Program-made: the position numbers and the translations under genes | Shown: positions 54,679 through 59,371 of the stretch, one piece after another | Position numbering within the stretch: the first letter of the stretch is position 1 | Layout: every line of letters starts with the position of its first letter | Source of the DNA: Oscillospiraceae bacterium | GTDB lineage: Bacteria > Bacillota > Clostridia > Oscillospirales > CAG-272 | DNA length: 64,000 bases | Assembly (NCBI GenBank): GCA_015063305.1 | Contig: SVUJ01000008.1 | Location: 1-64,000 of the forward strand | Reading direction: 5' to 3' | The notes under the pieces: generated by a model | What the model was told of the DNA's origin: nothing | The model's input: only the letters and a program-made list of their open reading frames with translations | Databases searched by the model: none

Positions 54679-56892
54679 TCAATCAAACCAAATAGGATTG
54701 GATATCGAAACAAATCGACAGTTCGTAAGGTCAAATATCTCCGCGCGGTAAAAAGCTCTCTTCTGAACCTCAAGCTCAAGCGCCTGAGGAAGCTTTCCGT
54801 CGTATACCGAGGAATAAGCTATTCCCTTGTCGGTGATAACCCTCAGCTCGTACGCCGAGTTGTCCTTGAACATCTTCGGGAAGAAGTCGTCAACGCGAAG
54901 CGTCAGCTTCATTCCGTCCTTGTATTCTACCACCGAGCCCATCGGCTTGCCGTCAACAAACATCTTCATTCCAACAGCGCCAACGGCATAATCTCCGTCG
55001 TGCATCTGGTCGAAGAAGTTCTTAGCAAGATGCTCTCTGTTGTAGAAAACTCCAAACGGAATACTGCTGGGGTCGGAGTGCGAGTCAGAGCCACCCGACA
55101 CGTAAACTCTCTTGCCCAGTGCAAGTATATCTGTCCAAAGCTCGTAACCCTTAAAGCTCCAGCTCGACTCATACCACGAATAAAGCGCCTCGAGATGAGT
55201 GAACTCGCCGTGATAGTAATCAAGCGGGTCGTCAGACTCAAGCAGATCCTTCGGGTGAGGGTGGACCATCATTCCGCCGATAGACTGTACGTAAGCCGTA
55301 AGCTCACGGAAGCGCTCCAGAGTAAAGCTGGGATATCCGTATCTACCCGTAAGCTCATCGCCCTTAAATCCGAATTCGGGGAAATTTGCCATGACCATAG
55401 CCACGCCGTACTTGTGCGGGAACAACATATTATAATGTATGATCTCCGCGCCCGTAACCGCGTTAAGCTCTCTTAATACCGTACCCGGCTCTGTTCCCAT
55501 AACGAATCTCTTCTCGTCCCACTCGGGAAGGAAAAATCCTCTCATCTGTCTGTGGTCAACGATAACAACGAAATCTATTCCGTTCTTCTCAAGCGCCGCG
55601 GGCCACTCCGACATAGCAACGCTTCCGTCACTCGTTCCGCCGCACGCGGTATGGACGTGCATATCGCCGTAATAAGCCTTAGTGCCCTCGTAATAAGCGT
55701 CCATAGCGGCAAAATCAGCGTCATTGAGGGGAAGTATCTTGTGCGCGTCCTCGGTATCGGTGGTCCAAGCATCGGCGCGGTTTTCGATATACTCGGTAGG
55801 CGTGGGGATTATTATTTCCTCAACCTCCTTGGCAAATCCCTCTATCTTGCAATCCTTAAGCTCGATATTAGCCTTGCCGCCGCGGGGCGTTACCAACGCG
55901 CCCTTATTGGCTCTTGTGTCTACGAAGGTACAGTTCTCGGCGTATACACCGCTGCGCTCATTTGAAAGGTCGGGCTGGAAGACACCCTCGTTCTCTCGGC
56001 TGGCATCAACAAATACCGAGTTGTATGCTTTCAAAACAACTCCTTTATCGCCCTTAGCCACGGTACATATTCCGTATTCGCCCTGAAGATTAGCCAAATA
56101 GGAATCCTTTATAATGAATTCCGACACGTCTACATTCGGCGAGGAATTGTCAAAACTGCGGCAAAGATTGGTAAATCCGAAATGCTGTGTGGTATTATCG
56201 AAGCAGATTCGGTCAAACACCGCCTTATTGGCGCGAATATTGGCAAATCCGCCTCCCTTTTTCGAGTCGTTATAGTGGCTCGATCGCATATTCTTGAAGT
56301 ATATCTCTCTGTAAAGCTTGGAATCTTCCTTCGGAGCTGCGCTGCGGAGCAATGTCTTTCCGCACGTTCCCTCCTGAATGATGTTGTTAAACTCTATCCT
56401 AAAGCTTCCGCCGTCTCGGCGCTTATCATACAGACGAACTTTCTTCAAAACAAATCCGTCAAAAACAATGGATTCTGCCGCAACGGAAGAAACCTGAAGC
56501 TCTCCGTATTCAAATCCGCCGTAAAGTACGCTTTCATTCTCGCCGCGCAAAGGATTGAGTGTGGGAGCCGCGAGAGGATCTTCGGAAAATACGTTGGGAT
56601 CTATTCCCGCGCCCTCGCCCAAAAGAGTGATAGAACGCTCTATGAGATATCCGTCAATACGGTTCACACCTGACGAAAACAGAATAACGGGAGTGCTGAA
56701 GGACTCATAAGGAAGTCCCTCCAAAACGGTCTGCGGAACTTCTGTGGCAAGCTTAGCTGCGTCCTTTATATTTCCAAAAAGATTTTCACCCTCTTTTGCC
56801 GAATAAGTGATTCCTTTAAAGGTGAAGCTATCCTTTGGCGCATTTTCAAAATCAGCCTGAACGGCATAATAGCCTTTTGGAAGTGTAAGCAT
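54679..56892 (-). CDS. Beta-helix plus PHP-type metallohydrolase (CehA/McbA-like)
   Basis: The 737-residue protein seems to join two parts. Residues about 30-390 look like a right-handed beta-helix with strand-turn repeats (VFDGFVLKKVRLYDKRRDGG, VYAENCTFVDTRANKGAL, NIELKDCKIEGF). Residues about 410-690 are a PHP domain with metal motifs YYGDMHVHTACGGTSDGS, DFVVIVDHRQM, GGMMVHPHPKDL and YVSGGSDSHSDPSS, as in CehA/McbA metallohydrolases. A short beta domain ends it. There is no signal peptide, so it should act in the cytoplasm, which is odd for a beta-helix of the pectate-lyase type. ATG at 56892 follows AAGGAGGG. The substrate is unknown. It diverges from the XRE gene. Confidence 0.88.
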   Translation of the reverse strand: MLTLPKGYYAVQADFENAPKDSFTFKGITYSAKEGENLFGNIKDAAKLATEVPQTVLEGLPYESFSTPVILFSSGVNRIDGYLIERSITLLGEGAGIDPNVFSEDPLAAPTLNPLRGENESVLYGGFEYGELQVSSVAAESIVFDGFVLKKVRLYDKRRDGGSFRIEFNNIIQEGTCGKTLLRSAAPKEDSKLYREIYFKNMRSSHYNDSKKGGGFANIRANKAVFDRICFDNTTQHFGFTNLCRSFDNSSPNVDVSEFIIKDSYLANLQGEYGICTVAKGDKGVVLKAYNSVFVDASRENEGVFQPDLSNERSGVYAENCTFVDTRANKGALVTPRGGKANIELKDCKIEGFAKEVEEIIIPTPTEYIENRADAWTTDTEDAHKILPLNDADFAAMDAYYEGTKAYYGDMHVHTACGGTSDGSVAMSEWPAALEKNGIDFVVIVDHRQMRGFFLPEWDEKRFVMGTEPGTVLRELNAVTGAEIIHYNMLFPHKYGVAMVMANFPEFGFKGDELTGRYGYPSFTLERFRELTAYVQSIGGMMVHPHPKDLLESDDPLDYYHGEFTHLEALYSWYESSWSFKGYELWTDILALGKRVYVSGGSDSHSDPSSIPFGVFYNREHLAKNFFDQMHDGDYAVGAVGMKMFVDGKPMGSVVEYKDGMKLTLRVDDFFPKMFKDNSAYELRVITDKGIAYSSVYDGKLPQALELEVQKRAFYRAEIFDLTNCRFVSISNPIWFD

Positions 56893-56940
56893 TTTTCCCT
56901 CCTTGATTATATGGATTTTGGTATCACATATACCGAGTTT

Positions 56941-56969
56941 ATTGTAGCACACGGCTGTTATATTGTCAA
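56941..56969 (-). promoter_or_regulatory. Promoter of the PHP gene
   Basis: TTGACA (56964-56969) and TACAAT (56941-56946) with a 17-base spacer on the minus strand. Confidence 0.88.
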
Positions 56970-57018
56970 TAATTTGAGTTTTTTTAGTGAAAATATTTTC
57001 CTAAATTACAGCAGGGGC

Positions 57019-57095
57019 AAAAAAGCCGATACGGAAAACCATATCGACCTTTTTGTTTGGCAGCAATCGGAGTTTGCATATATTCGTATATGCCT
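57019..57095 (-). ncRNA. Candidate ~75-base terminated RNA
   Basis: A consensus minus-strand promoter at 57102-57131 and a terminator at 57025-57048 (followed by TTTTTT at 57019-57024) bracket about 75 bases. An ATG at 57079 opens a 31-codon frame (to 56984) that runs through the terminator and has no good ribosome site, so an untranslated RNA or attenuated leader is more likely. No RNA family was recognised. Confidence 0.45.
57025..57048 (-). terminator. Terminator within the XRE/PHP intergenic region
   Basis: GTCGATATGG pairs with CCGTATCGGC (two G-U) around TTTT, followed by TTTTTT on the minus strand. The plus strand also has CTTTTTG after the hairpin. Confidence 0.85.
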
Positions 57096-57147
57096 AAGGT
57101 TATTATATCATACATTCGTATGATTTGTCAAGTCATATATTTATATG
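57076..57147. promoter_or_regulatory. Three inverted repeats, putative XRE operators
   Basis: GCATATATTCGTATATGC (57076-57093), TCATACATTCGTATGA (57108-57123) and CATATATTTATATG (57134-57147) share the half-site CATAYA/TRTATG. The second fills the -35/-10 spacer of the minus-strand promoter and the first lies at its start site, so binding would block it; the third lies in the likely promoter region of the XRE gene. Confidence 0.65.
57102..57131 (-). promoter_or_regulatory. Minus-strand promoter inside the operator region
   Basis: TTGACA (57126-57131) and TATAAT (57102-57107) with an 18-base spacer that contains an inverted repeat. Confidence 0.85.
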
Positions 57148-57211
57148 CGTGATACAATTATATATATACACAATTACAATCGTTTTTAAAATTAAAAAGG
57201 AGAACTATTAT

Positions 57212-57430
57212 ATGCATTATTACCAAAGGCTCAGAGATCTTAGGGAAGACGCTGACAAAAAGCAAGCGGATATCGCGGAGCTCCTTGGCATATCCCGACA
57301 GCATTATTCCTTATATGAACGCGGCGACCGCGAGCTTCCGATGCATCATTTTCTCACTCTGGCAAGATACTATAACGTTTCTCTTGATTATCTCGCCGGT
57401 CTGATCGATAAACCGAGAAAATTATACTAA
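57212..57430 (+). CDS. Small XRE-family transcriptional regulator
   Basis: The 72-residue protein is almost only a Cro/CI-type helix-turn-helix: RLRDLREDADKKQADIAELL, then GISRQHYSLYERGDRELP and LTLARYYNVSLDYLAG. It lacks a dimerisation or sensor domain, so it may dimerise through the helix after YLAGLIDKPRKLY or act as a simple autorepressor. ATG at 57212 follows AAAAAGGAGAAC. The inverted repeats 65-135 bases upstream are plausible targets. It diverges from the PHP gene and stands alone. Confidence 0.92.
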   Translation: MHYYQRLRDLREDADKKQADIAELLGISRQHYSLYERGDRELPMHHFLTLARYYNVSLDYLAGLIDKPRKLY

Positions 57431-57820: not shown

Positions 57821-59371
57821 TTATTTTGCGTAATCGACTGCTCTGCTCTCTCTTATAATGTTTATCTTTATCTGTCCGGGGTACTTGACCTCTTCCTGGA
57901 TCTTAGCAGCCATGTCTCTCGCTATAAGCTTCATTCCGTCGTCGTTGACCTCCTCGGGCTTGACCATAACGCGGATCTCTCGTCCCGCCTGTACTGCAAA
58001 CGCCTTGTCAACTCCGCCAAAGCTCTTAGCGATCTCCTCGATCTTCTCGAGTCGCTTAATATAATTTTCAAGATCCTCTCTGCGCGCTCCGGGTCTTGCC
58101 GCGGATATCGCGTCAGCCGCCTGAACTATCACAGCTGTGATAGACTTAGCGTCAACGTCACCGTGGTGCGCCTCTATAGCGTGGATGACCTCCTTGCTTT
58201 CCTTATACTTCTTAGCAAGGTTTACTCCAAGCTCAACGTGTGAGCCCTCCATCTCGTGCGTCTGCGCCTTTCCTATGTCGTGCAGAAGTCCCGCACGCTT
58301 TGCAACGGTACTGTCTATTCCAAGCTCGTCAGCTATCATTCCCGCGATAAGCGAAACCTCAATAGAGTGCTTAAGCACGTTCTGACCGTAGCTCGTTCTG
58401 AACTTAAGTCGTCCAAGCATTCTGATAAGCTCGGGATTTATGCCGTGGATTCCCACGTCAAAGGTAGCTCTCTCGCCCGCCTGCTTGATAACAGCCTCAA
58501 CCTCTCGCGAAGCCTTCTCAACCGTTTCCTCGATTCTCGAGGGATGTATACGTCCATCGGATATAAGCTTTTCAAGAGTTATTCTCGCCGTTTCTCTTCT
58601 CACGGGATCAAATCCCGAAAGGGTTATAGCCTCGGGAGTATCGTCGATAATAAGCTCTATTCCCGTAAGCTTTTCTATCATCTGGATATTTCTTCCCTCT
58701 CGTCCGATTATCCTTCCCTTCATATCCTCGCTGGGAAGCGATACTACCGATATAGTAGTTTCGGCAACGTGATCGGCAGCGCAACGCTGTATCGCAAGGG
58801 ATATAATGTTCTTTGCCTTTTCGTCAGCCTCGTCTTTAAACTGCTGTTCAAGATCGGAAAGTCTTTGTGCAAGCTCGTGCTTGACCTCAGACTCAACTCT
58901 GTTGATAAGCTCTTCCTTAGCTTCCTCGGCAGATATTCCCGATATTTGCTCAAGAACCTCCTGCTCCTTTTTAAGCAGGACCTCTATCTGTTCTCTGACA
59001 GCGTCATTTTCCTTGAGTTTTTTATCGAGCATTTCGTTTTTGCGTTCAAGTCCTTCAGCCTTTTTGTCAAGATTTTCTTCCTTTTGAGTTATTCTTCTCT
59101 CCATTCGGGAAACCTCGGCGCGTCTTTCCTTGAGTTCTTTTTCCGCTTCGTTTCTCTGACGCAGGATATCTTCCTTAGCGCTTATAAGAGCTTCTTTTTT
59201 CAAGGATTCGGCATCTTTGACCGCATCTTCTTTAATTTTCTTTGCTTCGCTCTCAGCCGAGCCTATCTTTCTTTCGCCTATTCTCTTGCGCAGCGCAACG
59301 CCAACGAGAACACCGACGAGGATAGCAACCACAGCCGTAGCCGCGAGCAATATCCAACCCCATAATTCCAT
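57821..59371 (-). CDS. rny: Ribonuclease Y
   Basis: The 516-residue membrane-bound endoribonuclease starts mRNA decay. It has an N-terminal transmembrane segment ([21 protein letters not shown]), a coiled coil over about residues 40-195 ([17 protein letters not shown]), a KH domain with [17 protein letters not shown] near 212, and an HD domain with LLHDIGKA near 360 and AIEAHHGDV near 393. ATG at 59371 follows AAGGAGGTGC. It is a single-gene unit with the promoter at 59523-59551 and a leader of about 145 bases. Confidence 0.98.

Follow-up and report, generated by a model that had tools for sequence, protein, structure and literature searches.

Our analysis of the window, a 64,000-nt stretch of a contig from an Oscillospiraceae bacterium, points to a regulatory circuit in which a small XRE-family autorepressor would control a trans-acting antisense small RNA (sRNA) that attenuates a regulon of structured leader RNAs, in a manner resembling that of plasmid pT181. 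We assign this reading a probability of roughly two in three. Its basis was established computationally and comprises the DNA elements, a conserved sRNA segment, the alternative structures of the leaders, the complementarity between sRNA and leaders, and the covariation of repressor and operators. In the proposed circuit, a 72-residue XRE protein would bind three operators, O1 to O3, and would repress, rather than activate, its own promoter as well as the divergent promoter from which a 77-nt sRNA is presumably transcribed. The sRNA would act in trans on dispersed attenuator leaders, pairing in cells with the 3′ strand of the leader closing stem P1, the linker RCAAUCGGRG and the part of the tail next to it. 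With the antiterminator blocked in this way, the terminator would form and the downstream genes would probably be switched off.

The DNA elements of this circuit are contained in a 320-base region, for which an earlier note had described two consensus promoters on the minus strand, a terminator between them, and three inverted repeats with a common half-site, and all of these were located. The distal promoter, that of the sRNA (TTGACA-18-TATAAT, 57102..57131, minus strand), has 12/12 consensus matches, and the separate promoter of the PHP gene (TTGACA-17-TACAAT, 56941..56969, minus strand) has 11/12. Scanning of 1.1 kb revealed 7 promoter-like sites, compared with 2.5 +/- 1.6 in shuffles. The intrinsic terminator of the sRNA (57018..57055, minus strand), which consists of paired arms at 57018-57034 and 57039-57055 and a U-run, is positioned between the two promoters. 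It was overlooked by the consensus scanner, is near-symmetric and may work on the plus strand too. The palindromes O1, O2 and O3, to which no strand is assigned, share the half-site CATA. Predicted operator O1 (CATATATTCGTATATG, 57077..57092) lies just downstream of the sRNA start (~57095) and doubles as a 5′ hairpin in the sRNA, while predicted operator O2 (CATACATTCGTATG, 57109..57122) occupies the sRNA promoter spacer (57108-57125), in agreement with the repeats previously placed at the start and in the spacer of the distal promoter. The third repeat does precede the XRE gene, as had been claimed, and its position can be refined: predicted operator O3 (CATATATTTATATG, 57134..57147) sits inside the spacer of the promoter that serves the XRE gene itself, for which the sequence suggests an extended −10 (TGATACAAT, 57150..57158, plus strand) and a weak −35 near 57130-57135 (plus strand).

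The XRE gene (57212..57430, plus strand) encodes a 72-residue protein with an HTH_3 domain (PF01381, E = 2.9e-14) and the recognition helix ISRQHYSLYERG; the combination of this domain with predicted operators over its own promoter is that of an autorepressor. The closest solved structure is the ICEBs1 Xre regulator (7t8i), and the match of the N terminus to an RstR-like model is below the cutoff. Comparison of eight close relatives, the window's own locus counted, shows concerted changes in recognition helix and operator. The helix QHYS is found with a CATA..TATG operator at four loci (G000, G006, G024 and G009:C3), and the helix QQYQ with a CATT..AATG operator at four others (G003, G035, G005 and G009:C125). 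Because helix and operator change together, the XRE protein is the likely regulator of the divergent promoters, and the autorepressor logic proposed earlier is supported at this level. The short HTH_3 protein, the divergent promoters and the several operators are also features of the small XRE/ImmR/RstR-type repressors of phages and ICEs. In contrast to those systems, the divergent promoter here makes a predicted sRNA in several species, and in G035 and G034 it faces a protein gene. At a paralogous XRE gene in C19 the operator differs, and a protein gene, not the sRNA, lies alongside. The genes flanking the window's XRE gene gave no sign of a prophage or ICE.

Downstream on the minus strand is a gene for a CehA/McbA-like PHP metallohydrolase (54679..56892; NF038032, E = 1.3e-19, below cutoff), which starts with an ATG at 56892 preceded by the Shine-Dalgarno sequence AAGGAGGG. 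The earlier note had proposed one system of the two genes, with an attenuated PHP leader as the target of the XRE repressor. The genes of the short RNA and of the PHP protein are on the same strand and a terminator separates the promoters from the PHP gene, as that proposal would have it. However, the PHP gene has its own 11/12 promoter and ribosome-binding site behind this strong terminator. Moreover, at the six further orthologous XRE loci inspected, neither PHP nor the RNase Y gene that adjoins the XRE gene here (window 57821-59371, minus strand) has a homologue on either side, and conserved copies of the short RNA occur where PHP is missing. Thus, of the conservation that the note had named as a check, the part concerning the XRE gene and the short RNA holds, and the part concerning the link to PHP does not. 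The PHP–XRE two-gene system was dropped because its neighborhood is not conserved; we regard it as very improbable, and the PHP gene is probably a neighbor outside the circuit.

The RNA expected from the distal promoter is ~77 nt long (~57019..57095, minus strand, with the start near A57095 and the end near 57019), close to the ~75 nt previously claimed, and it is conserved beside XRE orthologues. The predicted fold comprises a 5′ hairpin, a single-stranded antisense stretch and the terminator hairpin, and has an MFE of −29.5 kcal/mol (z = −4.35; 0/200 shuffles as good). The single-stranded center, GCAAACUCCGAUUGCUGCCAAAC, complements the 3′ portion of the leader RNA, and the antisense segment (GCAAACUCCGAUUGCUGCCAAACAAAA, 57051..57077, minus strand) is complementary to the leader P1 3′ strand, the antiterminator strand and the pseudoknot strand. 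Homologues are present in G006, G003, G005 and G019. In the first three, the promoter divergent from the XRE gene is at the same position and the antisense stretch follows soon after the start; the copy in G019 has no adjoining XRE gene. The consensus of the conserved stretch is GCAARCUCCGAUUGYYGCC or close to it. Comparison thus marks the distal-promoter RNA as a conserved antisense sRNA, a prediction made at the sequence level.

Six sRNA segments score 17 to 23, and among 3930 control segments taken downstream of −10-like sites, all those scoring at least 15 are leader reverse strands or the G006 sRNA itself (in a second record). The score of a candidate segment in G024 is also reached by background. 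Two close relatives of the XRE gene, in G009:C3 and G035, have no such sRNA beside them, and most leader-bearing genomes lack it. The remaining pattern matches within the genus turned out to be leaders or coding coincidences. Beyond the genus, a search of 394 genomes of the order with a strict promoter and core pattern returned the window and three matches in unrelated contexts. Alternatively, the segment could be a leader remnant, inverted and in decay, that came to lie downstream of an XRE-controlled promoter, its RNA being a by-product without targets. Indeed, its sequence is leader-derived, the antisense stretch beside the XRE orthologue in G009:C125 has lost its promoter −10, and some XRE relatives lack the segment. 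However, a segment of 20-25 nt has been kept in five species next to unrelated spacer sequence, and every intact copy retains a promoter and a terminator, the latter present each time but unrelated in sequence. Other parts of the leader, its tail GCRUUUUUCGGUGCG and its terminator, are not retained. We regard a decaying remnant whose RNA has no targets as rather unlikely, although the antisense segment itself could have originated by inversion of a piece of leader.

The leaders, a dispersed structured RNA of 165-220 nt, came to light through a search with the complement of the sRNA stretch. Each begins just past a TATAAT box, and its closing stem P1 (TGCCAAACAAA../..TTTGTTTGGC) shows strong covariation. 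A pseudoknot joins the apical loop, AAAAAYGCAAATTCC, to the tail, GGRGTTTGCRTTTTT. In 24 sequences, 98.3% of the P1 and pseudoknot cells are paired, with 53 double-change cells compared with 15.8 in shuffles; these come mostly from P1, and support for the pseudoknot is mainly from a swap test, in which partners were exchanged between leaders differing in linker or tail. By this test the leader's own partner was better in 144/151 cases for the pseudoknot and in 143/151 for the antiterminator. The latter is formed by the linker RCAAUCGGRG, located directly 3′ of P1, and its complement CUUCGGUUGY, which belongs to the terminator loop and 3′ arm; this covarying pairing competes with the intrinsic terminator, such that the two are mutually exclusive, as in pT181-type attenuation. 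The pseudoknot overlaps the antiterminator. With a conserved structured domain before genes and an expression platform, the leader resembles riboswitches in structure and position only.

The leader was found with a covariance model (R1) in 30/30 genomes of the genus, at 1 to 11 copies per genome with a shorter class counted too, and in 23/58 sampled genera of the family. An exact 22-base core is present in at least 119 contigs, nearly all from gut MAGs of Clostridia/Oscillospiraceae, and also in Anaeromassilibacillus senegalensis; it gave 0 matches in viral contigs. Examples include L056:1465-1668(−), L057:1464-1665(−) and L058:1344-1554(+), with others among L089-L207. A start codon and Shine-Dalgarno sequence follow in 137/160 cases, at a median of 48 nt past the model end, and the genes so positioned fall into at least 74 unrelated protein clusters, among them BspA-type LRR and SLH surface proteins, lipoproteins, SLOG-like proteins, zinc ribbons and small proteins of no known kind. 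Because of the short distance to the start codon and Shine-Dalgarno sequence, the alternative structures and the many gene clusters, the leader is most likely a general-purpose attenuator of transcription that acts in cis. No Rfam family matched at the sRNA or leader positions (E up to 0.1-5), and we file the leaders as a new RNA family without an Rfam match.

In the window's own genome, a pattern search with an 18-mer at up to 3 mismatches matched only the locus itself and three leaders. Computed duplexes of the window sRNA with three long leaders of the same genome have energies of −49.8 to −52.4 kcal/mol (0/300 shuffles as good) and extend from the P1 3′ strand through the entire linker into the tail, of which they take in the first half. 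The sRNAs of G006, G003, G005 and G019 form similar duplexes with many, not all, leaders of their own genomes, and across genomes the duplexes range from −35 to −52 kcal/mol and are centered on the linker. For several leaders, chiefly of the short class and some in G003, G005 and G009, pairing is no better than with shuffled sRNA. The sRNAs pair no clearly better with leaders of their own genome than with those of other species. As in pT181, the sRNA is complementary to the strand that contains the antiterminator; it departs from pT181 in that it is encoded at a separate locus and pairs with mismatches and wobble pairs.

The antiterminator has the linker as its 5′ strand, and pairing should therefore free the terminator and switch off the downstream genes. 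Indeed, when the linker is blocked, the computed probability of the terminator climbs from 0.40 to 0.98 across 150 leaders (to more than 0.9 in 143) in a model that ignores the pseudoknot and co-transcriptional kinetics, which suggests that bound sRNA causes termination. The opposite sign, with the XRE protein as an activator or with the sRNA turning leaders on by breaking the pseudoknot and releasing the 3′ half of the antiterminator, would draw on the fact that pairing of the sRNA extends over the pseudoknot strand GGRGUUUGC as well and that this pseudoknot overlaps the antiterminator. However, the antiterminator 5′ strand lies inside the duplex, so the on form is impossible while the sRNA is bound, and it is the blocking of this very strand that gives the terminator probability of 0.98. 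We consider such an activating role scarcely credible. A stronger alternative, though still an unlikely one, is that the short RNA serves as a sponge or decay trigger for terminated leaders, or is titrated by them, and so affects RNA stability or a trans role of the leaders, not termination. The complementarity would be identical, terminator-ended leaders would yield abundant RNAs of 165-220 nt, sRNA sponges derived from 5′ UTRs are known (PMC7815308), and every case described here fits co-transcriptional and post-transcriptional pairing alike. Against this, the antisense segment is centered on the antiterminator strand, a placement that a sponge alone does not need, and the fixed short distance of the leaders from start codons indicates control in cis. 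We thus favor attenuation of the leaders by the sRNA.

Plasmid pAMbeta1 uses transcription attenuation by antisense RNA. In pT181, antisense RNA sequesters the leader antiterminator and thereby causes termination (PMC4878617), and PMC7430163 cites antisense attenuation in pIP501. The three plasmid systems share with the case here a leader in which antiterminator and terminator exclude each other and an antisense RNA directed against the antiterminator. However, in the plasmids the antisense RNA is encoded in cis and acts on one rep leader, whereas here it would derive from a separate, repressor-controlled locus and act with imperfect complementarity on several chromosomal leaders. In the engineered antisense attenuators and STARs of Lucks and co-workers, trans-acting sRNAs switch the intrinsic terminator of a leader (PMC3753616, PMC4878617); these are synthetic, while the present case would be natural, chromosomal and multi-target. 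Riboswitch and T-box attenuators likewise have a structured 5′ leader with pseudoknot, antiterminator and terminator, one class of which precedes many genes. This likeness is structural only, and in contrast to them the leaders described here have no Rfam match and, in some species, a dedicated antisense sRNA. The parts are thus of known kinds, and in the literature searched (main texts) we could not find a description of the leader family, of the combination or of a comparable natural circuit. If the reading is correct, it provides a natural chromosomal example of multi-target antisense attenuation, a mechanism otherwise described chiefly for the control of plasmid copy number and for synthetic circuits. 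Whether the repressor-controlled antisense RNA amounts to a natural master switch that acts in trans as a second input, overriding the antiterminators of a dispersed riboswitch-like regulon, we judge to be evenly balanced. The work also exposes an orphan attenuator family, present throughout the genus and with a scattered distribution across gut Clostridia (Oscillospiraceae and relatives), the ligand or signal of which becomes a directly testable question.

Several features of the leaders and of the genes behind them were also observed. Leaders occur in tandem arrays of 2-4 in a row, several before one gene (L176:912-1667(−), L171:243-1226(+) and L095:3702-4201(+); also in L165, L138, L151 and L118). 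The shorter class, 112-152 nt long when the terminator is not counted (L238:800-929, L240, L242, L244, L246, L248 and L249), has loop, tail and terminator sequences that differ and change together. A conserved, cysteine-rich small protein, MSKN.PKKVIDITGVELTPG...ECCCDECDYFLLCFPEFD, with no Pfam or NCBIfam match, recurs behind the leader (L070:1231-1443(−), in a cluster of 12). SLOG/YpsA-like proteins (MFPYRVSFFGHR or MIITFCGH), for which Pfam matches are weak only, also recur there (L056, L057, L058, L054, L118, L120, L146, L165 and L171). SLOG proteins often bind nucleotide-type ligands, and these neighbors are a possible hint to the signal of the leader.
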